Assembly: GCA_949292525.1 (NCBI GenBank)
Contig: CASEZJ010000010.1
Location: 1-64,000 of the forward strand
From: an uncultured bacterium
Lineage (GTDB): Bacteria > Bacillota_I > Bacilli_A > Acholeplasmatales > Anaeroplasmataceae
DNA: 64,000 nt
Direction of reading: 5' to 3'
The position numbers were made by a program, and so were the translations under genes. Shown in pieces: positions 7,275 to 63,744 of the stretch. The notes below the pieces were generated by a model that was not told where the DNA came from, did not search any database, and worked only from the letters and a program-made list of their open reading frames with translations. The number at the start of each line of letters is the position of its first letter. Positions within the stretch are counted from its first letter, which is position 1.

Positions 7275-8178
7275 AGAAATAAAATTATTTAATCACACTT
7301 TTAAAAACCCAATAATTCCAGCTAGCGGATGTTTTGGCTTTGGTTATGAATTTAATGAATTTTATGATATTAATATTTTAGGTTCAATAGCTCTTAAAGG
7401 GACAACTAAAGAAGAAAGATATGGTAATCCATTGCCAAGAATCTGTGAATGTCCTAGCGGTTTAATAAACGCTATTGGTTTGCAAAACCCAGGTGTTGAT
7501 AAAGTTATAGGTGAAGAAATTCCTAAATTAAGTACTTGTTATGAAGATTTAGTTATTGCCAATTGTGGCGGACATAGCATAGAAGAATATATTGAGGTTG
7601 CTAGTAAATTTTCAAAATGTGCTAAAGTTGTTGCTATAGAATTAAATATTTCATGTCCTAATGTAAGTGGTGGTGGAATGGTGTTTGGCACTGATCCTGA
7701 TGTTGCTTATAATTTAGTTAAAGAAGTAAAAAAACATGTATCTAAGCCATTAATTGTCAAATTATCACCTAATGTTACAAATATAGTAGAAATGGCTAAG
7801 GCAGTAGAAAAAGCAGGTGCTGACGCTATTTCTTTAATTAATACTTTAGTTGGTATGCGTATTAATTTAGTAAATCATAAGCCAATAATTAGTGTTAAAA
7901 AAGGTGGCTATAGTGGACCCGGTGTATTTCCTGTTGCCCTAAATATGGTTTATCAAGTTTATGAAAATACTAAATTACCAATCATTGGTATGGGTGGTAT
8001 AACAAGTGCCTATGATGTTATAGAAATGATGTATGCTGGTGCTAATTTATGTATGGTTGGGGCAGCAAATTTAATTAATCCTTATGCTTGTCGTGACATC
8101 ATTTTAGATTTAGACCGCGTTATGAAAGAACTAAAAATTACTAATTTAAATGATATAATTGGTTTAGCACATTGCTAA
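7267..8178 (+). CDS. pyrD: Dihydroorotate dehydrogenase, class 1B catalytic subunit
   Basis: FMN enzyme that oxidises dihydroorotate to orotate, working with PyrK. ELNISCPNVSGGG contains the catalytic cysteine that marks class 1B (serine in membrane class 2 enzymes). The FMN phosphate loop GMGGI is present near the C-terminus. ATG 7267 is used with GTGAGG (7255-7260) upstream; GTG 7255 would consume that binding site. The protein is 303 residues, typical for the family. An NAD-linked enzyme suits an anaerobic or facultative cell. Confidence 0.94.
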   Translation: MNKEIKLFNHTFKNPIIPASGCFGFGYEFNEFYDINILGSIALKGTTKEERYGNPLPRICECPSGLINAIGLQNPGVDKVIGEEIPKLSTCYEDLVIANCGGHSIEEYIEVASKFSKCAKVVAIELNISCPNVSGGGMVFGTDPDVAYNLVKEVKKHVSKPLIVKLSPNVTNIVEMAKAVEKAGADAISLINTLVGMRINLVNHKPIISVKKGGYSGPGVFPVALNMVYQVYENTKLPIIGMGGITSAYDVIEMMYAGANLCMVGAANLINPYACRDIILDLDRVMKELKITNLNDIIGLAHC

Positions 8179-8200
8179 AAGCTAAAAAAAATTGTAAAAT
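8172..8200 (+). promoter_or_regulatory. Possible internal promoter before the mgtC-like gene
   Basis: TTGCTA (8172-8177), 17 bases, TAAAAT (8195-8200). It lies at the end of pyrD and in the 40-base gap before the mgtC-like gene, the widest gap inside the pyr operon. It could give pyrF and pyrE extra transcription. AT-rich sequence makes chance matches common. Confidence 0.4.
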
Positions 8201-8218
8201 AACATTAAGGTGATTAAC

Positions 8219-8953
8219 ATGTTTTTTACAATTAAGGTCGTTGACCCAATAGCTAAAGCTTTAGGTGCTTGGTCATATGATATAAGCTTTAGTTCAATTA
8301 TGTTTAGAATTCTTTTAGCAATCGTGTTTAGTTTTGCTATTGGAATTGAACGTTCAACTAAAAATCATTCTGCAGGGGTAAGAACTTATATTTTAGTTAC
8401 ACTAGGTTCGACAATTGCAATGTTAACTAATCAATTTATATTTGAAACATTTGATTCTGGTGATGCATCGCGTCTAGGCGCTCAAGTTATTTCAGGTATA
8501 GGTTTTTTAGGTGCAGGTACTATAATAGTTACTTCTAGAAGTCAAATTAGAGGTTTAACTACTGCGGCAGGCTTATGGGCATCAGCATGTATGGGTCTAG
8601 CAATCGGAATAGGCTTTTATACACTTGCTATAATTGCAGTAGTGGCTATAATTTTAGTATTTACTATTCTACAAGGATTTGAAAGCTATTTAAAAGATAT
8701 TTCAAAAAGTTTTACTATCCATATTGAATTAAATGAAACTAAAGATTTAAAAGAACTATTAAACTTTATAAGAAAAGCTAATATAGTTATTCAAAGAGTT
8801 GAAGCTAATCAAGCCTATCTAGAGTCAGGATTAGCTGTATATACAATGTATTTATATAATAAAAATAAAGGCTTCCGCAATATGCGTCATATTCCTATTT
8901 TGTCTTCAATTAGAGACTTAGAATATGTCAATTATGTAGAAGAAATTTCGTAA
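8219..8953 (+). CDS. MgtC/SapB family membrane protein
   Basis: A 244-residue membrane protein with four or five hydrophobic segments in the first 150 residues. It carries the family signature: GIERSTKNHSAGVRTYILV, followed by GIGFLGAGTI and RGLTTAAGLWASA. The hydrophilic tail (from about residue 160) is shorter than in Salmonella MgtC. MgtC relatives are linked to magnesium homeostasis and, in some bacteria, to inhibition of the F-type ATP synthase; which applies here cannot be told. ATG 8219 is used, with AAGGTG upstream. It sits between pyrD and pyrF, an unusual place. Eleven bases separate it from pyrF. Confidence 0.85.
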   Translation: MFFTIKVVDPIAKALGAWSYDISFSSIMFRILLAIVFSFAIGIERSTKNHSAGVRTYILVTLGSTIAMLTNQFIFETFDSGDASRLGAQVISGIGFLGAGTIIVTSRSQIRGLTTAAGLWASACMGLAIGIGFYTLAIIAVVAIILVFTILQGFESYLKDISKSFTIHIELNETKDLKELLNFIRKANIVIQRVEANQAYLESGLAVYTMYLYNKNKGFRNMRHIPILSSIRDLEYVNYVEEIS

Positions 8954-8964
8954 AGAGGTTTGTT

Positions 8965-9648
8965 ATGGAAAATAAAGTTATTATTGCTTGCGATTTTAAA
9001 AATCGTGATGAATTATTTACTTTTTTAAAACCTTTTGCAGGTTTAAACCCTTATCTGAAAGTTGGTATGGAACTATTTTATGCCGAAGGACCTGAAATGG
9101 TAAGAGAACTAAAAAAAGCAGGTTTTAAAATATTTTTAGACTTAAAATTGTGCGATATTCCTAATACAGTTGAAAAAGCTATGCGTAATCTAGCTAAATT
9201 AGATGTTGACATTACTAACGTACATGCTAGCGGTGGAATAAAAATGATGGAAGCCGCAAAAAGAGGCTTAGAAGGCTCAAACACTAAATTGATTGCAGTA
9301 ACTATATTAACATCTTTAGATGATGAAGCATTAAAAAATGAACTTGATATAAATAAATCAGTAAAAGAAGTAGTTTATGATTATGCTGCAAACGCTAAAA
9401 AAGCGGGATTAGACGGAATAGTTTGTTCTCCTTTTGAAGCTGGTATTGCTAAAGATTTAGGATTAATAAGCGTAACCCCTGGAATTAGACTTGCTGGTGA
9501 TAGTAAAGGTGACCAAAAAAGAGTTACTACTCCTAAAGATGCTAAAGAATTAGGTTCAACTTATATTGTAGTTGGTAGATCAATCACTGCTAGTCAAGAT
9601 CCAGTAAAAGAATATTTAAGATGTGTAAAGGAGTTTCAAAATGACTGA
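8965..9648 (+). CDS. pyrF: Orotidine 5'-phosphate decarboxylase
   Basis: Last step to UMP. The catalytic Lys-Asp network is in FLDLKLCDIPNTV, and the phosphate-binding end reads VTPGIRL and VVGRSIT. At 227 residues it is the compact bacterial type. AGAGG precedes the ATG. The stop is TGA, one of seven in the window, and lies within an eight-base overlap with pyrE. Confidence 0.95.
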   Translation: MENKVIIACDFKNRDELFTFLKPFAGLNPYLKVGMELFYAEGPEMVRELKKAGFKIFLDLKLCDIPNTVEKAMRNLAKLDVDITNVHASGGIKMMEAAKRGLEGSNTKLIAVTILTSLDDEALKNELDINKSVKEVVYDYAANAKKAGLDGIVCSPFEAGIAKDLGLISVTPGIRLAGDSKGDQKRVTTPKDAKELGSTYIVVGRSITASQDPVKEYLRCVKEFQND

Positions 9649-45411: not shown

Positions 45412-45463
45412 TTAAGTGGTGAAAAATTTTCATCTACAATATTCAAAAAAAGAGGTAAAATTT

Positions 45464-46114
45464 ATGAAAAAATTTGAAGTTTTGAATCGTATTGCCAACA
45501 TAGGTGTTGTTGCAGTAGTACGTGCCGAAAGCACAGAAAAAGGCTTAAAAATTTCAGAAGCTTGTATTTCTGGTGGAGTAACTGCAATCGAAGTTACTTT
45601 CACAGTTCCTGGCGCTGGTGAAATTATCTCTAATTTAATTAAAAATTATGCAGATAATGAAAATGTTCTAATCGGTGCAGGTACAGTTTTAGATTCTGAA
45701 ACTGCTCGTCAAGCTATTTTAAATGGTGCTAAATTTATCGTAAGCCCATGCTTTGATGAAGAAGTAGCTAAATTATGTAATCGTTATCAAGTTCCTTATA
45801 TTCCTGGTACACAAACTGTATTAGAAGTTAAAATGGCTCTTGATGCTGGCTGTGATGTTATCAAAGTATTCCCAGGTGATATTTTAGGACCTAGATTTAT
45901 TAAAGACGTTCATGGACCACTTCCATATGCTAATTTAATGCCTTCTGGTGGTGTAGATTTAGCTAACATACCTGATTGGATTAAAGCAGGTGTTGTTTGC
46001 GTAAGTGCAGGTTCAAGTTTAACTGCTCCTGCTAAAAAAGGCGACTATGCTGGTGTAACTGAGCTTGCAAAACAATTTGTAGCTGCAGTAAAGGATGCAA
46101 GAGCAAAAAAGTAA
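45464..46114 (+). CDS. kdgA: KDPG aldolase (2-dehydro-3-deoxyphosphogluconate aldolase)
   Basis: Splits KDPG to pyruvate and glyceraldehyde 3-phosphate, the last step of the pathway in this operon. The 216-residue TIM barrel has VVAVVRAES near the start, GAGTVLDSETA, and the Schiff-base lysine in CDVIKVFPGD. PSGGVDLANIPDWIKAG gives the phosphate site. Also known as eda. ATG 45464 follows AGAGGTAAA; the GTG at 45416 lies just after the -10 box. It is first in the operon. Confidence 0.94.
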   Translation: MKKFEVLNRIANIGVVAVVRAESTEKGLKISEACISGGVTAIEVTFTVPGAGEIISNLIKNYADNENVLIGAGTVLDSETARQAILNGAKFIVSPCFDEEVAKLCNRYQVPYIPGTQTVLEVKMALDAGCDVIKVFPGDILGPRFIKDVHGPLPYANLMPSGGVDLANIPDWIKAGVVCVSAGSSLTAPAKKGDYAGVTELAKQFVAAVKDARAKK

Positions 46115-46126
46115 TGAGGTAGTTAT

Positions 46127-47164
46127 ATGAAGAAGGAAAAAATTGTTACATTTGGTGAAATAATGTTACGTCTTTCCACTCCTGATTATGCTACTATTAA
46201 TCAATGTCGTAATTTCATTGTAAATTACGGTGGTGGTGAAGCAAATGTGGCGGTTGCGTTATCACATTTAGGACATAAATGTTACTTTATGTCTAAATTA
46301 CCACCAAATCAATTAGGGGATGGCGCTGTATCTCATTTACAAGCGAATGGAGTTAATACTGATTATATTGTTAGAGGTTCTTCAACGCTAGGTATTTATT
46401 TTTTAGAAACTGGTTTTGGTGGACGTCCATCTAAGATTATTTATAATCGTAAACACAGTGCTATTACGAGAGTTCAAATTAATGAATTTAATTGGGATGA
46501 AATTTTTGGCGATGCAACTTGGTTCCATATAAGTGGAATAACTTTAGCTTTAGGTGAAAGAGTTAGAACTGTTGCTTTAAAAGCAGTTCAAGAAGCTAAA
46601 CGTCGTAATGTTAAAGTCTCTTTTGATTTTAACTATCGAGCTAAGCTTTGGACAATCGATGAAGCTAAACCAATATATCAACAATTCATGCATTATGTTG
46701 ATATTGTTTTTGCTAGTTTTTGGGATGCTAACACTATTCTAGAAATACCTCTAGATAAAGAATTTGAAAATGCTACCCTTTCAGAAAAGAGAAGAAATGT
46801 CTTCCCTAAAATGATTAAAAAATATAATTTAAACTATATATTTGGTACTGATAGGGTTGTTTATACAGCTACTGATAATAGTTTAGCTGGCTATTATTTT
46901 GCCTTAAAAGGTGACCAATTGTCTTGGGAATTAACTAACCCAATAAGATTCAACATTTACGATCGTATTGGTGGTGGTGATGCCTTTGCATCTGGTGTAA
47001 TTCACGGCTTATTGAAAGATTTTGATGACCCAGCCTATGCTGTACGATTTGGTTTAAATACAAGTGTATTAAAACATACAATAGGTGGCGATGCATCTAT
47101 ATTCAGTAAAGAAGATGTTGAATCATTTATGGCAGCAAATAGTAGTGCAGAAGTAGAAAGGTAA
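46127..47164 (+). CDS. KdgK-like PfkB sugar kinase (first copy)
   Basis: A 345-residue ribokinase-family kinase. YGGGEANVAVALSHLG near residue 33 is the substrate side and DRIGGGDAFASGVIHGL near 280 holds the catalytic aspartate. By context it phosphorylates 2-keto-3-deoxygluconate, but a second, close paralogue lies 1.5 kb downstream, so the two may split substrates. Arginine codons here are mixed AGA and CGT, unlike the second copy. GAGGTAG precedes the ATG. Confidence 0.85.
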   Translation: MKKEKIVTFGEIMLRLSTPDYATINQCRNFIVNYGGGEANVAVALSHLGHKCYFMSKLPPNQLGDGAVSHLQANGVNTDYIVRGSSTLGIYFLETGFGGRPSKIIYNRKHSAITRVQINEFNWDEIFGDATWFHISGITLALGERVRTVALKAVQEAKRRNVKVSFDFNYRAKLWTIDEAKPIYQQFMHYVDIVFASFWDANTILEIPLDKEFENATLSEKRRNVFPKMIKKYNLNYIFGTDRVVYTATDNSLAGYYFALKGDQLSWELTNPIRFNIYDRIGGGDAFASGVIHGLLKDFDDPAYAVRFGLNTSVLKHTIGGDASIFSKEDVESFMAANSSAEVER

Positions 47165-47168
47165 TATT

Positions 47169-47633
47169 ATGATTGTTGGAAAGTTAAAAGATATTGCTCA
47201 CTATAAGGGCTTAAGTAAAAATATCGATACAGCTATAGATTTTGTGTTAACACATGATTTATTAGCCTTACCAAAAGGTAAAACTTTAATCGATGGCGAC
47301 AATGTTTATGTTAATCGTGATACATATGTTGCTAGACCTTTAGAAGAATGTTATTTTGAAGGGCATGATAAATATTTAGATATGCAAATTGTTCTAAAGG
47401 GTAAAGAGGGTTTCGGTTATACAGATATAACAGACCCAGGCTTAGTTGTTACTACTCCGTACAATAAGGAAAAAGATGTTACTAAATATCAAAATAAAGC
47501 AACTAATGAAATATATATAACACTTGAAGAAGGTTATGCTTTAGTTTTCCCTGAAGACATTCATTTAGCCAAATTAGATGTTGATGGTAAAACTATAGAA
47601 AAAGCAGTAATTAAAATTAAATTAGATAAATAA
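47169..47633 (+). CDS. YhcH/YjgK/YiaL (DUF386) family protein
   Basis: A 154-residue cupin-like protein, beginning MIVGKLKDIAHYKGL and with EGHDKYLDMQIVLKGKE and FPEDIHLAKLDVDGK, where the His and Glu residues bind metal. Members act as sugar anomerases or epimerases beside sialic acid and uronate genes; the substrate here may be a keto-deoxy sugar. It stands between the two kinases and is spaced four bases from the first. Confidence 0.85.
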   Translation: MIVGKLKDIAHYKGLSKNIDTAIDFVLTHDLLALPKGKTLIDGDNVYVNRDTYVARPLEECYFEGHDKYLDMQIVLKGKEGFGYTDITDPGLVVTTPYNKEKDVTKYQNKATNEIYITLEEGYALVFPEDIHLAKLDVDGKTIEKAVIKIKLDK

Positions 47634-47647
47634 GGAGAAAATTAAAA

Positions 47648-48673
47648 ATGGCAAAAATTGTTACTTTAGGCGAAATTATGTTAAGATTATCTACACCAGG
47701 TAATACACGTTTCGTTCAATCAGATTCTTTTGATGTAGTTTATGGTGGTGGTGAAGCAAACGTTGCTGTAAGCTGCGCAAACTATGGTCATGATGCATAC
47801 TTTTTAAGTAAAGTACCTACTCATGAAATTGGTCAATGTGCTGTAAATGCACTTCGTCGTTATGGTGTAAATACTAAATTTATAGCTCGTGGTGGCGATA
47901 GACTAGGTATTTATTATTTAGAAACAGGTGCTTCAATGCGTGCTTCTAAAGTTATTTATGACCGTGCAAACAGCGCAATTGCTGAAGCTAGTCCTAAAGA
48001 TTTTGATTTTGATGCAATTATGGAAGGCGCAGACTGGTTCCATTGGTCTGGCATTACTCCTGCTATTTCAGATAAAGCAGCTGAATTAACAAAATTAGCA
48101 TGTGAAGCAGCAAAACGTCATGGTGTTACTGTATCATGTGATTTAAACTTCCGTAAAAAATTATGGACAAGTGAAAAAGCTATTTCAATCATGCGTCCTT
48201 TAATGCAATATGTAGATGTATGTATTGGTAATGAAGAAGATGCAGAATTATGTTTAGGCTTCAAACCAGATGCTGATGTTACTGGTGGTAAAACTGATGC
48301 TTCAGGATATAAAGCAATATTTAAACAAATGGCTGAAAAATTTGGTTTCAAATATGTTGTTTCTACATTAAGAGAATCATTCTCAGCTACTCATAATGGT
48401 TGGAAAGCATTAATTTATAACGGTAAAGAATTCTATGAATCTAAACGTTATGACATCAACCCTATTATTGACCGTGTTGGTGGCGGCGATTCATTTAGTG
48501 GTGGTTTAATTCATGGCTTATTAACATATCCAACTGATCAAGGTAAAGCATTAGAATTTGCTGTTGCTGCATCAGCATTAAAACACACTATCAACGGTGA
48601 TTTCAACTTAGTTTCTACAGCTGAAGTAGAAGCATTAGCTGGTGGTGACGCTTCAGGTCGTGTTCAACGTTAA
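47648..48673 (+). CDS. kdgK: 2-keto-3-deoxygluconate kinase (second PfkB copy)
   Basis: A 341-residue PfkB kinase very similar to the first copy throughout (for example LGEIMLRLSTPGNTRFVQSD against FGEIMLRLSTPDYATINQCR). The catalytic motif is DRVGGGDSFSGGLIHGL. Arginine is mostly CGT, marking it as the more highly expressed of the two, so I give the gene symbol to this one. Phosphorylates KDG to KDPG, the substrate of KdgA. AAGGAG precedes the ATG. Confidence 0.88.
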   Translation: MAKIVTLGEIMLRLSTPGNTRFVQSDSFDVVYGGGEANVAVSCANYGHDAYFLSKVPTHEIGQCAVNALRRYGVNTKFIARGGDRLGIYYLETGASMRASKVIYDRANSAIAEASPKDFDFDAIMEGADWFHWSGITPAISDKAAELTKLACEAAKRHGVTVSCDLNFRKKLWTSEKAISIMRPLMQYVDVCIGNEEDAELCLGFKPDADVTGGKTDASGYKAIFKQMAEKFGFKYVVSTLRESFSATHNGWKALIYNGKEFYESKRYDINPIIDRVGGGDSFSGGLIHGLLTYPTDQGKALEFAVAASALKHTINGDFNLVSTAEVEALAGGDASGRVQR

Positions 48674-48688
48674 TTAAGAGAGGTTTTT

Positions 48689-49534
48689 ATGGAGTATTCA
48701 ATTTTAGCAAATGGCATTAAGATGCCTATGGTAGGTTTAGGAACATTTAAAGCTGAAAATGGTGCATCTTGTTATGATGCTGTAATTACAGCTTTAAAGG
48801 CTGGGTATAGACATATCGACACTGCTATGGGCTATGGTAATGAAGAAAGCATTGGTAAAGCGATCGAAGATAGTGGGATAAATAGAAGTGAAATATTTAT
48901 TACAACCAAACTTTATCCTGCTAAAATCGGCTATAAAAGTGCTAAAAAACATCTATTAGAATCACTTAAAAGGTTACGTACAAATTATGTAGATCTTTAT
49001 TTGATTCATTGGCCAAGTGCTAATGATTTAGTTAATATACATACTTGGCAAGCATTTGAAGAATTATATGATGCTGGTTATTGTAAAGCGATTGGTGTAT
49101 CTAATTTCAATATTCATCATCTTGAACATTTAATTGCTAGTGCTAGAATAAAACCAATGGTAGACCAAGTTGAATTACATCCATTTTTAACCCAAACCGC
49201 TTTAGCTAAATATTTAAAATCAGAAAATATTGCCTTAGAAGCATATGGCCCTTTTGCTAAAGGAAAGGTATTTGAAGATGAATTATTGAAGTCTTTAGCT
49301 GATAAGTATCATACTGGTATTGCTAATATTGTCGTTAGATGGGGTTTACAAAAAGATATCATAATGATTCCAAAATCAGTAACAATGAATCGTATAATTA
49401 GCAATTTTGATGTTTTCTCATTTGCCCTCACCGAATTAGAAATAAATGAAATTGATAATTTAAATTTGGGAAAAAGATTATATACCGACCCCGACAATTG
49501 TCCTTTTTGCCCTACTAAGGAGTATGAAATATGA
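48689..49534 (+). CDS. Aldo-keto reductase
   Basis: A 281-residue NADPH-dependent TIM-barrel reductase. The catalytic tetrad is visible: Asp in HIDTAMGYGNEE with its Tyr, Lys in ITTKLYP and His in LIHWPSA. The coenzyme end has IPKSVTMNRI. A role on an aldehyde or keto sugar is likely; the exact substrate is unknown. Its TGA stop overlaps the next ATG (ATGA). Confidence 0.87.
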   Translation: MEYSILANGIKMPMVGLGTFKAENGASCYDAVITALKAGYRHIDTAMGYGNEESIGKAIEDSGINRSEIFITTKLYPAKIGYKSAKKHLLESLKRLRTNYVDLYLIHWPSANDLVNIHTWQAFEELYDAGYCKAIGVSNFNIHHLEHLIASARIKPMVDQVELHPFLTQTALAKYLKSENIALEAYGPFAKGKVFEDELLKSLADKYHTGIANIVVRWGLQKDIIMIPKSVTMNRIISNFDVFSFALTELEINEIDNLNLGKRLYTDPDNCPFCPTKEYEI

Positions 49535-50376
49535 AAATTGGTGTAAGAGTTCATGATTTAGGCCGTAACACGCCAGAAAATTTAGCAAAAACAGCTAAAA
49601 ATATCGGCTTTGACGCCGTTCAATTAGTAGTTAATAAGGCTATCTTAGATGAAGGTAGCCTTCCTACTTATTTAGATGACGATAAGGTAAGAAATATTTC
49701 TAATGCCTTTATTAATGAAGGACTTGAAATAGCTATGTTAGGAGCTTATTTTAATCCAGTTCATGAAAATAAAGAAAAAGTAGCAGTTGGCATTAAAAAC
49801 TTTAGTAACTTTTTACAATATGAGCATAAATTTAAAGCTCATTTTGTCGGCAGTGAAACAGGTTCATTTTCAAACGATCCATGGGTGTATCATCCTCATA
49901 ATCGTACTGAAGATGGTTTTATGCAATCTGTTGATGTTTTTAGACAATTAGCTAAAGTAGCTGATAAATATGATGCAAACATAGCTCTTGAAGGAGCCTT
50001 TGGCCATGTTTGTTATGAACCTAAAATATTAAGAAGATTATATGAATTAATTGGTTCAAATAAAATATATTTTACAATTGACCTATTTAATTATTTAGAT
50101 ATTTCTAATTATAAGAATTATCTAGATATATTAGATGATGCTATAAGTACATTAGGGGATAGAACTGTTATCTTCCATTTAAAAGATTTTAAAATTGAAG
50201 ATAATAAGCTAGTACGTGCTGATATAGGTCAAGGTATAATGGATTACAAACTCGTCTTATCTAAGATGTTAGCATGTAATCCAAATGCATATTATATATT
50301 TGAAGGCAATTCAAAAGAAGGTATGCAAGATAGTTATAATTTCATTAGAAATATAGAAAAAGAGGTTATAAAATGA
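49531..50376 (+). CDS. Xylose-isomerase-like TIM-barrel sugar isomerase/epimerase
   Basis: A 281-residue protein of the AP-endonuclease-2/IolE/IolI-like superfamily. MKIGVRVHDLG opens the barrel, and likely metal ligands lie in IALEGAFGH, FTIDLFNYLD, IFHLKDFK and IFEGNSKEG. Function is not specified; it may interconvert keto-deoxy acids or another hexuronate intermediate. It is coupled by four-base overlaps to the genes on both sides, which makes it an integral part of the pathway. Confidence 0.78.
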   Translation: MKIGVRVHDLGRNTPENLAKTAKNIGFDAVQLVVNKAILDEGSLPTYLDDDKVRNISNAFINEGLEIAMLGAYFNPVHENKEKVAVGIKNFSNFLQYEHKFKAHFVGSETGSFSNDPWVYHPHNRTEDGFMQSVDVFRQLAKVADKYDANIALEGAFGHVCYEPKILRRLYELIGSNKIYFTIDLFNYLDISNYKNYLDILDDAISTLGDRTVIFHLKDFKIEDNKLVRADIGQGIMDYKLVLSKMLACNPNAYYIFEGNSKEGMQDSYNFIRNIEKEVIK

Positions 50377-51209
50377 AATTAGAAGTTAGATATTCCAATC
50401 ATCCTAATGATTCTAAAAAATATGACACTAAAGAATTGAGAGCTAATTATTTAGTTGAAGAAGTTTTTAAAGCTGATGATATATTATTAGTATATTCACA
50501 TCAAGACAGAATAATTGCTGGTGGGGTTATGCCAGTACATAAAACTTTAAAACTAGAAACTAGTGATGAATTAAGAGCAAAATATTTCTTAGAACGTCGT
50601 GAACTTGGAATAATCAACATAGGTGGTAATGGTAAAGTAGTTTTAGATGGTAAAGAATATGAAGTTAAATCTAAAGATGGTTTATATGTAGGTATGGGAA
50701 CAGTAGAAGTTTTATTCAGCTCTAATGATCCTAAAAACCCAGCTAAGTTTTATATTGCTTCATGTCCTGCTCATAAAACTTATCCAACATACTATATTGA
50801 TTTTGATAAGGCAAATCATCGTCCATGTGGTGAAGCTAGCACTTTAAATAAAAGAGTAATTAACCAATATATTCACCCAGATGTATGTAAATCATGTCAA
50901 TTAGCAATGGGTATGACTGCTTTAGAAGAAGGCAGTGGATGGAATACTATGCCTTGTCACACTCATGAAAGAAGAATGGAAGTATATTTCTATTTTAATA
51001 TTAAGCCTGGTCAAGTTGTTTTCCATATGATGGGTGAACCACAAGAAACTAGACATATTGTAATGCAAAATGAACAACTTGTAATTTCACCAAGTTGGTC
51101 TATTCATTCAGGTGTAGGTACTTCAAATTATTCTTTTATTTGGGCTATGTGTGGTGAAAACCAAGAATTTGATGATATGGACAATATTGAAAATACAGAT
51201 TTAAAATAA
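50373..51209 (+). CDS. kduI: 5-keto-4-deoxyuronate isomerase
   Basis: Isomerises 4-deoxy-5-keto-uronate to 2,5-diketo-3-deoxygluconate, the entry point after unsaturated glycosidases act on pectin or glycosaminoglycan fragments. The 278 residues contain the zinc site CHTHERRMEVYFYF near 195-208 and the later SPSWSIHSGVGTSNY. Length fits E. coli KduI. Its ATG overlaps the isomerase stop. Confidence 0.94.
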   Translation: MKLEVRYSNHPNDSKKYDTKELRANYLVEEVFKADDILLVYSHQDRIIAGGVMPVHKTLKLETSDELRAKYFLERRELGIINIGGNGKVVLDGKEYEVKSKDGLYVGMGTVEVLFSSNDPKNPAKFYIASCPAHKTYPTYYIDFDKANHRPCGEASTLNKRVINQYIHPDVCKSCQLAMGMTALEEGSGWNTMPCHTHERRMEVYFYFNIKPGQVVFHMMGEPQETRHIVMQNEQLVISPSWSIHSGVGTSNYSFIWAMCGENQEFDDMDNIENTDLK

Positions 51210-51227
51210 GGAAGGAAAAATTATAAT

Positions 51228-52028
51228 ATGAATATGAATGATTTTAGATTAGATGGTAAGGTAGCTCTTATCACTGGTGCTTCATATGGCATTGGCTTTG
51301 CTATTGCTGAAGCATTTGCTGCAGCTGGTGCGACGATAGTATTTAATGATGTTAAACAAGAATTAGTAGATAAAGGTTTAGCATCATATAAAGAAAAAGG
51401 TATCAAAGCTCATGGTTATGTATGTGATGTAACTAATGAAGAAGCTGTAACTGATTTTATTGCTAAAGTTGAAAAAGAAGTTGGCGTAGTAGATATTTTA
51501 GTTAATAATGCTGGTATTATTAAACGTATTCCAATGTGTGATATGACTGCTGCTCAATGGCGCCAAGTAATTGATATCGATTTAACTGGACCATTTATTA
51601 TGGCTAAAGCATGTATTCCAGCAATGGTTAAAAAAGGCCATGGTAAAATCATTAACATCTGTTCAATGATGTCAGAATTAGGTCGTGAAACAGTTAGTGC
51701 TTATGCAGCTGCTAAGGGTGGCTTAAAAATGTTAACTCGTAACATTTGTTCTGAATATGGTGGAGCTAACATTCAATGTAATGGTATTGGACCTGGTTAT
51801 ATTGCTACTCCTCAAACTGCTCCATTAAGAGAAAGACAAGCTGATGGTAGCCGTCATCCATTCGATCAATTCATCGTTTCTAAAACACCTGCAGGTAGAT
51901 GGGGAAATGCGGAAGATTTACAAGGACCAGCAGTATTCTTAGCTAGTGATGCTTCTAACTTTGTAAATGGCCACATTCTTTATGTTGATGGTGGTATTTT
52001 AGCTTATATCGGTAAACAACCAGAATAA
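51228..52028 (+). CDS. kduD: 2-dehydro-3-deoxy-D-gluconate 5-dehydrogenase
   Basis: Short-chain dehydrogenase, 266 residues, that reduces the KduI product to 2-keto-3-deoxygluconate. The NAD(P) loop is GASYGIGFA (about 18-26), NNAG follows, and the catalytic YxxxK is in SAYAAAKGG. NIQCNGIGPGYIATPQT and FVNGHILYVDGG are typical of KduD. The codon pattern (CGT arginine, few rare codons) points to high expression. It ends the operon before a strong terminator. Confidence 0.93.
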   Translation: MNMNDFRLDGKVALITGASYGIGFAIAEAFAAAGATIVFNDVKQELVDKGLASYKEKGIKAHGYVCDVTNEEAVTDFIAKVEKEVGVVDILVNNAGIIKRIPMCDMTAAQWRQVIDIDLTGPFIMAKACIPAMVKKGHGKIINICSMMSELGRETVSAYAAAKGGLKMLTRNICSEYGGANIQCNGIGPGYIATPQTAPLRERQADGSRHPFDQFIVSKTPAGRWGNAEDLQGPAVFLASDASNFVNGHILYVDGGILAYIGKQPE

Positions 52029-56295: not shown

Positions 56296-58785
56296 CTATT
56301 TTAATGGACTAGCTATGATTAATTCAATAGCTAAAGGCTCTAATTCAACATCTATAATTAATTTCTTTTGATTTATGATAGTACTTGTAATAGTAGGACG
56401 ACATTTAGATTTTAAATACTCGACCATTTCATTATCTAGAGGTAAATTGCCATTAGATAAAATATAATTATCATATAGATTTTCCTTTTGTGAATAAGTA
56501 TATTTTTTAATTAAATATTTACCCCCTAATGTTGTAAAGGAAAAAGACAAATTTAATTTTTCTTTATTTGGGAAAACCTCATAACGATTATCATAAGCCA
56601 TATTTACACCAATATTTTTGGCATAAGCATCTGAATAATGAGAATAGTTATGAATGATAATAATATAAGAATCATCTTTTTTTGTCACTAAATATTTATC
56701 ACCTTTACAAATAAACTTATCACCTAACATATTCAATAAATAATAAGCATAATAAGCAGATTTTTTTAAACCGTTAAGGCTATACATACCTAAACCACCA
56801 TGAAATAAATTATTAGGAAGAGTTTGTTCTTCATTTAAATCATGTAAAAGCCAATATCCTAACCCATCATATTGATTAAAAGTATCAATAATATTTTTGA
56901 CAATATAGACACTCTTAAAAGAAGTATCAGACAATAAATCCCTATGACTAGTAGTAAAGCTCCATTCAGTAATATATAAAGGGACATAGTTATAACCGGT
57001 ATCTTTTAAAGTGCTATGAATCCTTGTTAAAGTTTTATTAAAACTATCACTATCATTAACTAACCATAATGAGTTAGGTTTATAATTAGGTGAATTAAAA
57101 AAATCTGTTGATAATTCAATATCGTAATAATGTATTAAAATAAAATCTAAAGGCATATGAACTTCCCAGGTGAAGTTTAAAAAAGAAGATAGCCATTCTA
57201 AATCTTTTTTATATGCTGTAAAGGCAGCTGGACCACCTATTTTAGCATTTGGTAAAATTTTTCTTATAGTTTCATAGGTATTTTTATATAAAAACTTAAA
57301 CTTATCATCATCCATACCAAATAAAGTGTTAGGATTTGCTGGTTCATTCCAAAGAGTAAACAGCCAATTAGATAATGTTTTTTGCCCATAACGTTCAATA
57401 ATATGTTTTAATACAGCCTCAATTAAATGATTCCACTTCCGAATCGAATTAGGAAAAGAAACATTGGTTTTACCACGAAAAATGCATTTTCTAGCTTCAC
57501 TTGCTAATAAACTTGGCATAAAAGAAAATTGGACTAACGGTTTTAAATTAATACTTAATATAAAATCAAAAACTTTATCTAAATAAATGAAATTATAATA
57601 GGTTTGACCATTATTATTTTCATTATAAATCATCATATCATCATCTAAAATACCGTGCATTTTAATATATTCAAAGCCAATAGTTTTTTGTACATCAATT
57701 AATGCATCCTGAATATCAGTTCTTAAAACATCGTAAGCACGACTAACACCGATAAATTTTTTGTATGTTTTAACAAATGGAGACTCATCAGTTGTATCTA
57801 TTTCAATATTTTGAGCGTTAGTAGGTATGATTTTAGAAAAATTTTGAACTTGATTATCGGAATTTTCTAAAATAAATTTATTTAAATTATCTTGTAAAAA
57901 ATCAGTAGATGTCTCTAAATAGTTAAATTTTACATTTTTACTAGTAAGATTTATTTTTTGTTCACGTGATAATTGTTCCTTGCGCCATATACTAGGAATA
58001 ACATTATATTTTTCTTTAAAAGCAGTAGTAAAAGCTCTAGCATTAGGAAAACCATTGTTACTAGCTATTTCTTGTAATGTTAAATTTAAATTCAGTAAGT
58101 CTTCACCGGCAAATCTAAGTCTTACTTCCTTTATATAATCAGTGATAGTTAAGCCCATATTTTTTCGAAAAAGTCTTGATAAATATTGTTCTGATAAGTA
58201 GACCTTTGATGCTAAATAAGGTAAAGTTAAATCATTTTTATATTCATTATTAATTAAATTTAATAAATTATTTAATTTGTCATAATCTTCAAAGGCAAGA
58301 TTCGAACTATTTGAAATGTGAAAATTAGCATACAATTCATAAATTAAATGTAATATTAAAGATTCATTAATTACATTTATATATTTTTGATTAGAAATAT
58401 TATTAGAAATTATCTGGGCTATTAGTTTTTTTATATAACCATAATTTTTTTCAACATTAATATCAGTTGAATTTAGATCATATTTAGTTGTAATGAATTC
58501 TTTAGGTAGATTTTTAAATAAACTTAATTTTATTTGTAATGTTAATATACTAGTATGAGTACCTTCTAATTCATGCAGTTCATTAACGTTAAATAAAATA
58601 ATATCACCTTTATGTAAAGTAGAAGTTTTAAGATTAGTTTTTGTAATAAGAGTACCGTCTAGAACTATTACTATTTCTAGTGATTGATGCCAATGTCTGC
58701 TGATATCATTGATCGTTGAAACAAACATATTAAAAGGTAAATAATCATTAAAGTTAATAACTTCATGTTGGGTGTTATTATTCAT
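56296..58785 (-). CDS. AraC-type regulator fused to a GH39 glycosidase
   Basis: An 829-residue fusion. Residues about 10-110 form a cupin with RHWHQSLEIVIVLDGT, the AraC sugar-sensing pattern. About 165-275 is the double helix-turn-helix (LPYLASKVYLSEQYLSRLFR and LQEIASNNGFPNARAFTTAF). From about 330 comes GH39, with acid/base Glu481 in WNEPANP and nucleophile Glu607 in ITEWSF. Both glutamates are intact, so it may hydrolyse beta-xylosides or be a catalytic-type sensor. No signal peptide: cytosolic. ATG 58785 follows GGAGG. It probably controls the divergent sugar-importer operon. Confidence 0.9.
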   Translation of the reverse strand: MNNNTQHEVINFNDYLPFNMFVSTINDISRHWHQSLEIVIVLDGTLITKTNLKTSTLHKGDIILFNVNELHELEGTHTSILTLQIKLSLFKNLPKEFITTKYDLNSTDINVEKNYGYIKKLIAQIISNNISNQKYINVINESLILHLIYELYANFHISNSSNLAFEDYDKLNNLLNLINNEYKNDLTLPYLASKVYLSEQYLSRLFRKNMGLTITDYIKEVRLRFAGEDLLNLNLTLQEIASNNGFPNARAFTTAFKEKYNVIPSIWRKEQLSREQKINLTSKNVKFNYLETSTDFLQDNLNKFILENSDNQVQNFSKIIPTNAQNIEIDTTDESPFVKTYKKFIGVSRAYDVLRTDIQDALIDVQKTIGFEYIKMHGILDDDMMIYNENNNGQTYYNFIYLDKVFDFILSINLKPLVQFSFMPSLLASEARKCIFRGKTNVSFPNSIRKWNHLIEAVLKHIIERYGQKTLSNWLFTLWNEPANPNTLFGMDDDKFKFLYKNTYETIRKILPNAKIGGPAAFTAYKKDLEWLSSFLNFTWEVHMPLDFILIHYYDIELSTDFFNSPNYKPNSLWLVNDSDSFNKTLTRIHSTLKDTGYNYVPLYITEWSFTTSHRDLLSDTSFKSVYIVKNIIDTFNQYDGLGYWLLHDLNEEQTLPNNLFHGGLGMYSLNGLKKSAYYAYYLLNMLGDKFICKGDKYLVTKKDDSYIIIIHNYSHYSDAYAKNIGVNMAYDNRYEVFPNKEKLNLSFSFTTLGGKYLIKKYTYSQKENLYDNYILSNGNLPLDNEMVEYLKSKCRPTITSTIINQKKLIIDVELEPLAIELIIASPLK

Positions 58786-58827
58786 AAAATTCCTCCACAT
58801 GTAAAAATTTAATATTTAATTATTATA

Positions 58828-58836
58828 ATTATAGCA
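58828..58836 (-). promoter_or_regulatory. AraC-GH39 gene promoter (extended -10)
   Basis: On the minus strand TGCTATAAT (58836-58828), an extended -10 without a good -35, about 43 bases before the start codon. An activator or autoregulation is possible. Confidence 0.45.
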
Positions 58837-58931
58837 TAATTTTGATTTTAATATAAAAAAAATCTAATAAAATATGTAACATTCTTTCATACATTAAAAA
58901 TTTTAATATGAAAGCGATATTAAAACATACA

Positions 58932-58956
58932 AGAAAACGTTTTTATAGAATATAAT
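58932..58956 (+). promoter_or_regulatory. Sugar-importer promoter region with operator candidate (site 5)
   Basis: AGAAAACGTTTTTA (58932-58945) lies in the place of the -35 and spacer, just upstream of TATAAT (58951-58956). No good -35 is present, as expected of a promoter needing an AraC-type activator; the palindrome would let a LacI/CcpA protein block it. Confidence 0.5.
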
Positions 58957-59004
58957 AAGTTGTCATTAGAAGTAAGGATAATATACGAGAAAGGAGAAGA
59001 ATAA

Positions 59005-60585
59005 ATGGCAGATGAATTATTTTTAGAAGTTAAAGATATTACTAAAAAATTTGGCGATTTAGTAGCTGTTGATAATGTTAATCTTAAAATATACCGCGGC
59101 CAAATTAAAGGCTTGATCGGTGAAAATGGTTCAGGCAAATCAACTATTAGTTCAATGATAAGTGGTATACATACTATTACATCAGGATCTATTATTCTAA
59201 ACGGTCAAAGCTTTAAGCCTAGTAGTCCGTTAGAAGCTAGAGAAAAAAAGATTTGTATGATTGTTCAAGAAACGGGAACGATTAATAATTTAACTGTAGC
59301 AGAAAATATTTATTTAGGTGATGAAAAAAGATTTTGTCATAAAGGAATATTAGATACTAATAAATTAAATGAATCAGCTAAACAAGCATGTATGGCTATA
59401 GGTTTAGATATAGATGTTACAAAGCCTTGTAATAATTATACTTTTGAAACTAGAAAAATGGTTGAAATAGCTAGAGCATTGGCCTATGATCCAGATTTAT
59501 TCATCGTTGACGAAACCACAACTGCATTGTCACAAGATGGTCGGGAAAAAATTCATGAAATCATGGTTCAATTACGAAATGCTAATAAAGCTGTTTTATT
59601 TATTTCACATGATTTAGAAGAACTGATGGAAATATGTGATAATTTAGCTGTTTTAAGGGATGGTAAATTAATAAAAGAAATTGTTAAGTCAGATTTTAAT
59701 GAGACTGAAATAAAAAACACTATGGTTGGTCGAGTAATTGAAGGCAATTATTATCGTAGTGATTATGATTATCAGACACTAGATACCGTTTCTTTAGCAG
59801 TTAAAAATCTTACAACTGATATCTTAAATAATATTAATTTAACACTTCATCAAGGTGAAATACTTGGGATTGGTGGTTTATCTGGTTGTGGAATGCATGA
59901 ATTAGCTAAAGCTATCTTTGGTATGGAAAAGATAAAATCTGGTGAAATTTTAGCTTATAGTAATCCGACCATGACATTTAAAGAAAGACTTAAGATGGAT
60001 TGGCTAAAATTAAGAAAAAAGCCATATGAGGCTAATGAAGAAATTAAAGAACAAAAGATTTCTTCAATTGCTGATGCATTAAGAGCTAGAATAGGCTATA
60101 TTTCTAAAGATAGAGATACGGAAACTTTGATATTACCTGCATCTATAAAAGATAATTTGACTTTAAGCAATCTAGATGATTTATCAAATTTTGGTTTAAT
60201 TTCTCCACATAAAGAGAAGAAATTCGCTAAAGAATTAATTGATGAATTTAGAATTAAAGCTACTTCGATGAATCAATTAGTTAAAGAATTATCAGGTGGT
60301 AATAAACAAAAGGTTTCCTTTGCAAAATGGATAGGTAACAATAGTAAAATACTAGTTTTTGATAGTCCAACTCGAGGTGTAGATGTTGGTGTTAAAACCA
60401 CTATGTATCAATTGTTATATTCATTAAAAAAACAAGGGTATAGCATATTAATTGTTTCAGAAGAATTACCAGAATTAATTGGGATGTCTGATCGAATATT
60501 AATTATGAAAAATGGTGAAATTAAGAAAGAATTTTTACGCGATCCAAATTTAAAAGAAAATATGATTATCGAATATATGATTTAA
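59005..60585 (+). CDS. Sugar ABC importer, double-domain ATPase (RbsA/XylG-like)
   Basis: A 526-residue CUT2-type ATPase with two ABC halves. First half: Walker A GENGSGKST, Walker B LFIVDETT, but the signature is degenerate (YTFETRKMVEIARA). Second half: Walker A lacks its lysine (GGLSGCGMHELAKA), the signature LSGGNKQKVSFAKW is intact, and Walker B ends in DSP instead of DEP. Together one composite ATP site looks complete and the other dead. About 30 extra residues sit in the second half near 315-350. AAAGGAG precedes the ATG. Confidence 0.9.
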   Translation: MADELFLEVKDITKKFGDLVAVDNVNLKIYRGQIKGLIGENGSGKSTISSMISGIHTITSGSIILNGQSFKPSSPLEAREKKICMIVQETGTINNLTVAENIYLGDEKRFCHKGILDTNKLNESAKQACMAIGLDIDVTKPCNNYTFETRKMVEIARALAYDPDLFIVDETTTALSQDGREKIHEIMVQLRNANKAVLFISHDLEELMEICDNLAVLRDGKLIKEIVKSDFNETEIKNTMVGRVIEGNYYRSDYDYQTLDTVSLAVKNLTTDILNNINLTLHQGEILGIGGLSGCGMHELAKAIFGMEKIKSGEILAYSNPTMTFKERLKMDWLKLRKKPYEANEEIKEQKISSIADALRARIGYISKDRDTETLILPASIKDNLTLSNLDDLSNFGLISPHKEKKFAKELIDEFRIKATSMNQLVKELSGGNKQKVSFAKWIGNNSKILVFDSPTRGVDVGVKTTMYQLLYSLKKQGYSILIVSEELPELIGMSDRILIMKNGEIKKEFLRDPNLKENMIIEYMI

Positions 60586-60594
60586 GGTGAAAGT

Positions 60595-61575
60595 ATGCAA
60601 AATAAGTTTTTAAGTAATACGTTAACCTTTGTTAGAAAACATAAAAGCTTGTTAATTCAATATGGTTGTTTAGTTCTAGTAGTTTTGATTTTCTCGATTG
60701 TTACAGGTGGAGATTTATTTTCTACTTATAATTTGAAAAATTTGGTCTACCAAACTACACCATTATTGATTATGGCAGTAGGCTTAATTTTTATATTTGC
60801 TCATGGTGGCTTTGATGTTTCGTGTGGAGCTGTTTGTGGACTGAATGCTTTAATTAGTATTTTGATTATCAATAATACTGGATCAGTATTATTAGCTCTT
60901 ATATGTAATATTATAGTTTCCTTACTTTTATATTTATTTAATATTTTTATATCAATTAAATTTAAAATTATGGCTACTATTTCTAGTTTGGCAATTATGT
61001 TTATAGCTAGAGGCATAATAACGTATGTTTGTTCATTGAATAACGGTACAATTAGACTTGTTGATTATCAAGTTTTAAGTGAAATTAAAAACAATGTCAT
61101 AATTCAAATTGTAGCGTGTGTAATAATTGTATTAATAGCCATTTTATTATTTTCATATACTAAAATAGGTAGACAGGCAAAGGCAATTGGTGATAATCCA
61201 CTATCTGCTAGTCAGAGTGGAACAAAAGTAAATAAAGTTAAATTCATTTGCTATGCGTTTGCCGGATTATGTGTTGGTGTTGCTGGAATCTTTGTTTTAG
61301 CTAGATCAGGAAATGTAGGTAAAAACATTGGTTCTGGTAACGAAATGGATGTTATGGTTGCGATCATCTTAGGTGGTATGAGTCTTCAAGGTGGTTCAAA
61401 AACCAGATTAAGTTCAGCTATAGTTGGATGTATAACTTTAAAAGTGTTATCAACAGGAATGGCAATAGCTGGAGTACCAAATAGTTCTGTATCTTTGGTT
61501 AAAGGTATTTTGTTTATAATTATTATATTAACAACATTACGCCAACCAAAGTCAGTTAGAGAAATGCCAAGATAA
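60595..61575 (+). CDS. Sugar ABC importer permease 1 (RbsC-like)
   Basis: A 326-residue CUT2 permease with 8-10 TM helices. LIMAVGLIFIFAHGGFDVSCGAVCG and IGDNPLSASQSGTKVNKVKF are the family loop and helix pattern; GNEMDVMVAIILGGMSLQGGS ends it. CUT2 importers usually have a single type of permease. A second, different one follows at 62722, so this importer probably uses a heterodimer. Confidence 0.88.
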   Translation: MQNKFLSNTLTFVRKHKSLLIQYGCLVLVVLIFSIVTGGDLFSTYNLKNLVYQTTPLLIMAVGLIFIFAHGGFDVSCGAVCGLNALISILIINNTGSVLLALICNIIVSLLLYLFNIFISIKFKIMATISSLAIMFIARGIITYVCSLNNGTIRLVDYQVLSEIKNNVIIQIVACVIIVLIAILLFSYTKIGRQAKAIGDNPLSASQSGTKVNKVKFICYAFAGLCVGVAGIFVLARSGNVGKNIGSGNEMDVMVAIILGGMSLQGGSKTRLSSAIVGCITLKVLSTGMAIAGVPNSSVSLVKGILFIIIILTTLRQPKSVREMPR

Positions 61576-61599
61576 AAAAGAAAGGAATGGGTAATAATT

Positions 61600-62712
61600 A
61601 TGTTTAAAAAAATTTTGGTATTAGTTTGTTCATTATTTGCTTGTGTTATGGTAGCAAGTTGTAACAAAGAGGATGAAAAAGTTAAAATTGGTTTAGTTAT
61701 GTATCAATGGACTGATACACAAGGTAAAAATATGCAAAATTATTGCAATTATTTAGAAGAAAATTTCAATGTAGAATTTGCCTATGAATCTACATATTAT
61801 CAAGATGATAAACACTTAGAATGTATCGAAAATTTAATTTCTCAAGGTTGTAATGCGATTATAGCTGGTTATGACACATCACTTGAAAGTTCTATAGATA
61901 CATGTAGTTCTAATGGTGTTTATTATATTGTTGCACTAGATTATATTGCAGCAGCTGATTTAGGAAGCACTAAATCTGATTATTTCTTAGGTGGTACCCA
62001 ACAATTTGGTGGTGATTTAGCAGCCTTAGGTGCTGATTATGCTAAAGCTGTTATTGAGAATGATTTAACTAATGTTGGTGGTGTTTCTTTCCCAGCATGG
62101 GCATTTAATGAAGCTCCTGAAATTTATGCAGGATTTAAAGCTGCGATTGAAGCCGCAACAGATGCTACAGTAGCTGATTGTACATATGCTAATGGTTTTG
62201 ATCAGACTGCTATTCAAACAGCAACACAAGAAGTTTTAGCTACAGGTGTTGATGTAATCTTTGGTATGAGCTCAGGTATTGATTATGTATATCCAGAAAT
62301 AAGAGATACAGATGTTAAATTAGTTTCAATGGGTTATGATGATTCAGTTGCAAGTTTAATGGATAGCGGAAAATTAATTGCTGCTGGTAACAATAATCAT
62401 GCAGCTTGTATAGCTTCTTGTTTTGTTCGTATTATGAATGGAATTAGTGGTAAACAATATAAAGATGCAGCAGATGGAGAATATAATCGCGATGGTATTA
62501 TTAATGGTGTAGCATCTTACCCTGTTATAACAAACAAAGATGAATTAAATGATTATAAAACATATATTGTTACTGAAGATCTAGCAAACGGTCCTGTTAC
62601 AGCAGATGAATTAAAAGAAGTAATGTTAGATTATAATGAAAATGCTACCTTAGCGGCTTTAAATGAATTAACAAATCGTACTTTAGCAGAAGTAAAAGCT
62701 GCAAGATCTTAA
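61600..62712 (+). CDS. Sugar-binding lipoprotein (periplasmic-binding protein type 1)
   Basis: A 370-residue extracellular binding protein. The signal peptide ends in lipobox VASC (Cys at about residue 21). The mature part begins KIGLVMYQWTDTQGKNM, the opening of RbsB-type proteins, and GVDVIFGMSSGIDYVYPEIR belongs to the second lobe. Ligand not predictable; GH3 and GH39 neighbours suggest a beta-linked di- or oligosaccharide. AAAGGAATGGG lies upstream of the ATG. Confidence 0.88.
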   Translation: MFKKILVLVCSLFACVMVASCNKEDEKVKIGLVMYQWTDTQGKNMQNYCNYLEENFNVEFAYESTYYQDDKHLECIENLISQGCNAIIAGYDTSLESSIDTCSSNGVYYIVALDYIAAADLGSTKSDYFLGGTQQFGGDLAALGADYAKAVIENDLTNVGGVSFPAWAFNEAPEIYAGFKAAIEAATDATVADCTYANGFDQTAIQTATQEVLATGVDVIFGMSSGIDYVYPEIRDTDVKLVSMGYDDSVASLMDSGKLIAAGNNNHAACIASCFVRIMNGISGKQYKDAADGEYNRDGIINGVASYPVITNKDELNDYKTYIVTEDLANGPVTADELKEVMLDYNENATLAALNELTNRTLAEVKAARS

Positions 62713-62721
62713 GGTGTAATT

Positions 62722-63744
62722 ATGAAAAGCAAATTGATTAAAATAAGTACTAATTATGCTAAAACTTTAATATTTCCAGTTGGTCTATATTTAATCTTTG
62801 CTATCCTTGCTTTAGCTTTAAAGAACAATTTATTCTTTTCTAGTTCAATTACTAGTAACATATTTATAGATAGCGTATCGCAATCTTTAATGGCTCTTGC
62901 GGTAGCTATCCCCCTTTCTGGGGGAAGATGGGATTTTGCCCCTGGTATTATTGCCATATTAGGTGCTATTATCGGTATTAATTTAGGCATTAGCATGCAT
63001 GCAAATGTTTTTGTAATATTACTTTTATGCATCATATCTACAACTATATTAGCTTTAATTGAAGGTCTATTATATGTTTTTATTAAGGTTCCTAATATGA
63101 TTATTTCATTAGGTGTAGTAATGGTATATGAAGCCTTAACTGCCATTTTATATAATGGTGCTGGTGTTAATATTTTTTCATTAGATGTAGAATATGCTAA
63201 TCAAATATTAGTTTTAAGCGAACAACCATGGTGTTATTTAATTTTATTTGTAATAATGGCAGTTGTCTGGTTTTTATTATATAAAACAAAATTTGGTGCT
63301 GATACAAAATCCTTACAAATGAATCCTAGAATAGCTATAAATAATGGCGTAAATGAAAAGAAAAACATTATTATAACTTATATAATTGTCGGAGTATTAT
63401 TAGGCTTTGTAGCTTTATTTAATGCATCTAAAGCTAAAGTTGAACCAACTAATAATTTAAATAGTGCCTCATTAATGTATAGTTCAATGACACCTGTACT
63501 TATTGGATTATTCTTAGCTAATTATTCAAATATGCCTTGGGGTATATTAATGGGTGCTATAGGAATGAACTGTTTAACATATGGTATGCAAAGCTTTGGC
63601 GTAGATAGTTCAATTCAAACTATTATCACAGGTTTAGTAATAGTTGCCGTTATGGCGTATACCGCAAATAAGGGTGTATTAGATAATTTCTTAAATCAAT
63701 TTAAAAAGAAGAAGAACAAAGGTGTTAATAATGTTACAGAATGA
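62722..63744 (+). CDS. Sugar ABC importer permease 2 (RbsC-like)
   Basis: A 340-residue CUT2 permease with about 8-9 TM helices. MALAVAIPLSGGRWDFAPG corresponds to the helix-loop seen in permease 1, with SGGRWDFAPG replacing the usual GGIDLSVG. The sequence is clearly different from permease 1. Its TGA stop lies within the start of the GH3 gene (14-base overlap). Confidence 0.86.
   Translation: MKSKLIKISTNYAKTLIFPVGLYLIFAILALALKNNLFFSSSITSNIFIDSVSQSLMALAVAIPLSGGRWDFAPGIIAILGAIIGINLGISMHANVFVILLLCIISTTILALIEGLLYVFIKVPNMIISLGVVMVYEALTAILYNGAGVNIFSLDVEYANQILVLSEQPWCYLILFVIMAVVWFLLYKTKFGADTKSLQMNPRIAINNGVNEKKNIIITYIIVGVLLGFVALFNASKAKVEPTNNLNSASLMYSSMTPVLIGLFLANYSNMPWGILMGAIGMNCLTYGMQSFGVDSSIQTIITGLVIVAVMAYTANKGVLDNFLNQFKKKKNKGVNNVTE

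Follow-up and report, generated by a model that had tools for sequence, protein, structure and literature searches.

AraC-type regulators fused to a complete GH39 domain: a glycosidase fold as probable sugar receptor opposite a CUT2 importer operon

In trigger enzymes such as BirA and PutA, an enzyme and a DNA-binding domain share one chain, which senses a metabolite. Among larger regulators with an AraC module, AryK and Rsp of Staphylococcus aureus have reported roles in toxin expression and metabolism (PMC3922988), and the C-terminal region of AryK-type proteins is described in the literature only as divergent, with a presumed part in the recognition of environmental signals (PMC7241556). 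Xylosidases of GH39 that carry an AraC-like domain at their N-terminus have been mentioned in passing, in a methods sentence (PMC8543862) that gives no function, synteny or pattern of catalytic loss for the fusion. A metagenomic gene has also been called both a GH39 enzyme and an AraC regulator, its product being insoluble (PMC4730625, PMC5457731), and its GH39 assignment looks partial. A literature search, which left subscription papers mostly outside its reach, returned no functional description of an AraC-GH39 fusion. As far as could be found, such fusions are known to databases and functionally undescribed, and automatic annotation labels them either as xylosidases or as AraC regulators.

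The fusion described here is encoded in a window of 64,000 nucleotides (the whole stretch of DNA analysed) from an uncultured bacterium of the Anaeroplasmataceae. One continuous open reading frame on the reverse strand, at 56296-58785, encodes a single protein of 829 amino acids. Since a GGAGG with suitable spacing precedes the ATG at 58785, this start, also the one placed by the first-pass annotation, is preferred over the alternative 834-aa ORF beginning at 58800. The cupin, AraC helix-turn-helix (HTH) and full GH39 domain with both catalytic glutamates that had been read in this chain are all recovered with Pfam models, AraC_binding (E-value 2.8e-7), HTH_18 (4.5e-18) and Glyco_hydro_39 (1.5e-66) being over their cut-offs. 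The protein has the double HTH (about 99 aa) of the AraC/XylS family, matched over cut-off by both PF12833 (4.5e-18) and PF00165 (2.1e-10), and belongs to GH39 by profile (PF01229, 225.6 bits against a cut-off of 26) and by its putative acid/base and nucleophile, E481 and E607. The features of the gene are as follows.

56296..58785, reverse strand: AraC-GH39 fusion gene, 829 aa (ORF and domains; 91% identical orthologue in the related genome G002; dN/dS 0.067 overall)
58300..58758, reverse strand: cupin (AraC_binding) at the N-terminus, followed by a helical linker, together covering about residues 10-162 (PF02311 at 28-133, PF07883 at 28-77; model strands at 18-85)
57969..58278, reverse strand: DNA-binding domain, an AraC-type double HTH spanning about residues 170-272 (PF12833 at 191-269, PF00165 at 181-219; lowest dN/dS, 0.022)
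56299..57801, reverse strand: complete GH39 part, made up of the barrel and a C-terminal beta domain and covering about residues 329-829 (PF01229 at 329-704; Foldseek TMt 0.88-0.89 to GH39 beta-xylosidases, across some 515 columns)
57343..57345, reverse strand: codon for E481, the putative acid/base in WNEP, which aligns with GsXynB1 E160
56965..56967, reverse strand: codon for E607, the putative nucleophile in TEW, which aligns with GsXynB1 E278

Between the window protein and its G002 orthologue, dN/dS rises from 0.022 in the HTH to 0.062 in the GH39 barrel and 0.112 in the C-terminal part, and the cupins are 93% identical. A chimeric assembly or other assembly artefact was rejected, since dozens of unrelated genomes, some of them in records with 'complete genome' in the title, carry this fusion in one frame.

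Alignment to GsXynB1 shows that H377, N480, H552, Y554, W645 and E653 are also kept. In an AlphaFold2 model built with 59 fusion sequences as input (mean pLDDT 86.6), most of the GH39 part exceeds 90, and Foldseek matches it to GH39 beta-xylosidases along their entire length, with TM-scores of 0.87-0.91 of the target (0.88 for 2bs9, over its 501 residues); thus, the domain is not truncated. The active site being complete, measurable hydrolysis by the window protein is rather likely. Leu and Asn stand where XynB1 has F166 and F322, at positions that vary across fusions, so that substrate specificity may differ from that of XynB1.

The gene had been annotated as divergent from a sugar importer, and a CUT2-type operon does start at 59005. 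Its genes (59005-63744) encode, in order, a double-domain ATPase, a permease, a lipoprotein substrate-binding protein (SBP) and a second permease, and Pfam matches to the double-domain ATPase, to BPD_transp_2 in the permeases and to Peripla_BP_4 in the lipoprotein place the importer in the CUT2 class.

59005..60585, forward strand: CUT2-type ABC ATPase with two ABC domains, 526 aa (PF00005 in two stretches; best NCBIfam matches of RbsA/XylG/AraG types, below cut-offs)
60595..61575, forward strand: CUT2 permease 1 (PF02653, 2e-32)
61600..62712, forward strand: lipoprotein sugar-binding protein (PF13407, 2.7e-10)
62722..63744, forward strand: CUT2 permease 2 (PF02653, 1.6e-17)
58786..59004, no strand: 219-bp intergenic region between the divergent genes, presumed to contain the operator (84% mean column identity, three relatives)
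58951..58956, forward strand: TATAAT, -10 of the importer operon, conserved in three relatives
58909..58922, forward strand: conserved block TGAAAGCGATATTA, cre-like or operator candidate (TGAAAGCGATA invariant in three relatives; one mismatch to TGWAANCGNTNWCA)

Beyond the window, on the same contig, the operon runs on to GH3, esterase-like and beta-phosphoglucomutase-type HAD genes (typed on the G002 copies). The GH3 gene is split in the window's genome into two overlapping ORFs (7723-8031 and 8025-9359 of locus L045; about 63722-65358 of contig C10, running past the window end); it is intact in G002 (2592-4304 of locus L035), and the split represents a frameshift or an assembly error.

The promoter of the importer operon had been described as having no -35, and the corresponding position (58928-58933, with a 17-bp spacer) indeed reads TACAAG, with two of six matches. 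A -10 without a -35 is what would be expected of an activated gene. The conserved block at 58909-58922 could be a CcpA site. Across 43 regions, cre-like sites with no more than one mismatch are overrepresented (8 against 0.9 expected, several of them from related lineages), those of Paenibacillus sit near the start codon, and no protein of the window's genome reaches the cut-off for CcpA. The sequence TGAAA[AG]CG is also present opposite three paralogues with a catalysis-dead GH39 part (L033, L038 and L043). A search of the 219-bp region for an operator motif gave AT-rich repeats, none of them convincing, and a promoter scan scored 6, close to the mean of 4.6 for shuffles. Elsewhere in the window, at 45416-52028, genes of KDPG-aldolase, KDG-kinase, KduI and KduD type follow one another as in an operon and suggest uronate catabolism; they were named from their translations, the last one (SDR) alone being profile-checked.

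A scan using one genome per species yielded 205 stretches encoding relatives, from which 80 loci were kept; once duplicates had been removed and fusions from relatives' genomes added, 85 distinct fusions were aligned. Two more (L072 and L076), each with both glutamates, were recovered by hand, bringing the total to 87, nearly all of them from Bacillota. Their hosts are Paenibacillus, Cohnella, Bacillaceae, Clostridia, Lachnospiraceae, Erysipelotrichaceae, Listeria goaensis, a Treponemataceae bin and Demequina; no viral copies of the fusion were found. Thus, the first-pass annotation's view of a little-described regulatory design holds for function, but the architecture itself, with 87 fusions, is widespread.

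About half of the fusions stand opposite an ATPase-permease-SBP-permease(-GH3) operon. The mapping of fusions with adjacent CUT2 importers, which had been proposed beforehand, gave a CUT2 ATPase and permease within 6 kb in at least 47 of the 85 and a GH3 gene in at least 56, while in at least 42 the next gene on the divergent side encodes an ABC ATPase; all three are lower bounds, some contigs ending early. Across those 42 loci the divergent spacing has a median of 222 bp, the window locus having 219 bp. In a second arrangement, the fusion is adjoined either by GH3, HAD and esterase genes or by an MFS sugar transporter. Local duplication as the origin of the fused GH39 was rejected for the window's genus, where the tree places the standalone GH39 genes outside all of the fusions (SH-aLRT 99).

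Both catalytic glutamates are kept in 71 of the 87 fusions. The acid/base is absent from the other 16, replaced by A, V, L, Q, S or I, and six of these have lost the nucleophile too. When the two catalytic columns are excluded from tree building, acid/base loss requires at least five independent changes, the exact number being uncertain with a quick method and several long branches. Among eight pocket residues checked, the acid/base is the most often lost (kept in 69 of 85, against 75-84 for the others). It is the sole pocket loss in L083, which retains H54, H228, Y230, E278, W316 and E324 (XynB1 numbering), whereas in L111 and L092/093/097 it is accompanied by N159S, the remaining contacts being retained. 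The change to Ala in L033, L037 and L111 is the same as in the crystallised XynB1 entry 2bfg, by its title a complex of XynB1 with substrate and covalently bound sugar. Four comparisons of dead copies gave dN/dS values of 0.12, 0.09, 0.11 and 0.07 for the GH39 part, with synonymous sites near saturation in three of them. Judged by these values, the catalysis-dead fusions are not decaying genes, their GH39 part being under purifying selection.

In the window's family, a standalone intact GH39 gene is found in the operon opposite a dead fusion at L036, L038, L039, L040 and L042, five loci that amount to about two independent cases; L096 is the one intact fusion with a GH39 fragment nearby. At L042, a sulfatase gene (4639-6240) lies beside the standalone GH39 and a GH2 gene, hinting at a sulfated glycan as substrate there. 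The window's genome holds only two GH39 domains, both in fusions, and the window copy alone has both glutamates, the paralogue L033 having lost its acid/base. At L033, 1336-9842, this second fusion faces an importer of unusual make-up, whose ATPase has 675 aa and whose permease has 497 aa.

Taking into account that fold, sugar contacts and selection are kept after catalysis has been lost, a receptor is the simplest reading of the GH39 part. We therefore prefer, with a probability of roughly 0.6, an explanation in which the fusion protein would act as a one-component regulator that activates the divergent operon for glycoside uptake, where GH3 follows the CUT2 importer. Its AraC HTH would bind the 219-bp intergenic region and recruit RNA polymerase to the -10-only promoter. 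An imported small beta-glycoside would dock in the intact active site of the GH39 domain, the main cytoplasmic receptor, and would thereby alter DNA binding by the cupin/HTH part. The window copy, with both glutamates kept, would probably cleave the bound glycoside slowly, so that the signal fades once uptake stops. Activation, sensing by GH39 rather than mainly by the cupin, the class of ligand and its turnover are what we infer here from sequence.

The first-pass annotation had offered two roles for the GH39 part, cleavage of the regulator's own inducer and a second sensor. The second is favoured by the repeated acid/base losses, the contacts often kept and the purifying selection; cleavage is plausible for the window protein itself, given its complete active site, but is not required by the design, and hydrolysis is best read as optional fine-tuning rather than as the core mechanism. 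A stronger version would make hydrolysis of the inducer the core step, the active site setting the lifetime of the signal in the manner of PutA or BirA. It agrees with the two glutamates of 71 of the 87 fusions, perhaps a sign that most members benefit from catalysis, with the dN/dS of 0.062 of the GH39 barrel between orthologues, and with the lack of a standalone GH39 in the window's own genome. However, the acid/base has been lost at least five times independently in regulators that are retained and constrained, so that hydrolysis could not be essential to the design; we regard this version as unlikely, and give the necessity of hydrolysis for regulation equally poor odds.

More doubtful still is that the GH39 domain makes the inducer, turning an imported glycoside into a product (a monosaccharide) bound by the fused cupin. 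Both domains are present, the cupin pocket is the classical one in AraC itself and the cupin is conserved between orthologues, but the dead fusions keep the cupin and the same synteny, and would have to work without product release. The cupin could also be the sole sensor, with the GH39 part as a scaffold or a true enzyme. That this part is a working catabolic enzyme carried on the regulator, with no sensing role, is very improbable despite its complete active site and its standing as the only GH39 of its genome with both glutamates, since dead domains would then be useless and yet remain under purifying selection, and regulators are usually too scarce to carry metabolic flux.

As regards the ligand of the GH39 receptor that we favour, xylobiose, suggested beforehand as inducer, is a weak candidate, as no xylose isomerase model matches in the window's genome (92% complete, so that absence is not proof) and F166 and F322 of XynB1 are replaced by Leu and Asn; a XylB-type kinase is present. 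Residues for substrate recognition of the XynB1 type are listed in PMC8543862. Short GH3 neighbours (about 565 aa) at many loci (e.g., L034, L035, L036 and L041) carry KHFPGDGVDERDQH. They are candidate GH3 phosphorylases, and in several loci their genes adjoin a beta-phosphoglucomutase-type HAD gene. The motif resembles the Asp-x-His dyad found in GH3 enzymes of the NagZ type, which include phosphorylases. The HAD of the operon is a beta-phosphoglucomutase (TIGR01990, 232 bits, over cut-off), which would fit a beta-glucosyl phosphate as product. Our best guess, made with low confidence, is a beta-glucoside or a related acylated beta-glycoside. Beta-glucuronidase and UxuA/UxuB-type genes occur in some relatives' loci, and thus the ligand may differ between loci.

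The window protein has AryK (NF047455) as its best NCBIfam match, over residues 29-414, with 167.2 bits against a curated cut-off of 850, which places it outside AryK proper; AryK is likewise the best NCBIfam match of four distant fusions. In Listeria goaensis, the AryK model aligns colinearly to an intact fusion at residues 14-412 and again at 477-755; this second match, of 92.5 bits, falls entirely within the GH39 part. A further L. goaensis protein of 777 aa (L146, 1489-3822) is covered by the AryK model over residues 3-757 with 468 bits; being below the cut-off of 850, it is classed by this score as AryK-like rather than AryK. It scores 98.8 bits against a profile of the GH39 part of the fusions and has neither catalytic motif, and the Pfam GH39 model reports no match in it. 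AryK was also sought in relatives of Salinicoccus, where none was found. The C-terminal region of about 450 aa of AryK-like proteins is very probably a decayed GH39 domain; extending this to AryK itself, Rsp and Rbf is speculation. A wider picture is put forward tentatively, at less than even odds: the AraC-GH39 fusions would be a large regulator lineage that recruited a glycosidase whole as sugar receptor, with catalysis as a timer in most members and the acid/base dropped in others to give stable binders, and AryK-type regulators would be the decayed end, their orphan C-terminal domain a former GH39 sugar pocket.

If this is true, a transcription factor uses a full glycosidase to bind its ligand, natural dead versions separate sensing from cutting, and the unexplained C-terminal half of AryK-type regulators acquires a testable identity. 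Compared with the GH39 beta-xylosidases (GsXynB1, 1w91/2bs9/2bfg; TsXynB, 1px8), the GH39 part of the window protein has the same complete fold, both catalytic glutamates and the conserved -1 subsite residues, but it is fused to a cupin and HTH and has Leu and Asn at F166 and F322 of XynB1. With AryK (NF047455) and Rsp (NF033869) of S. aureus it shares the order of parts, an N-terminal AraC module followed by a C-terminal part of about 450 aa, whereas the AryK-like protein is devoid of the catalytic motifs and Pfam detects no GH39 domain in it. Like BirA and PutA, the AraC-GH39 fusions join an enzyme and a DNA-binding domain in one chain; unlike them, they are built from different folds, and catalysis has been repeatedly lost across the family.
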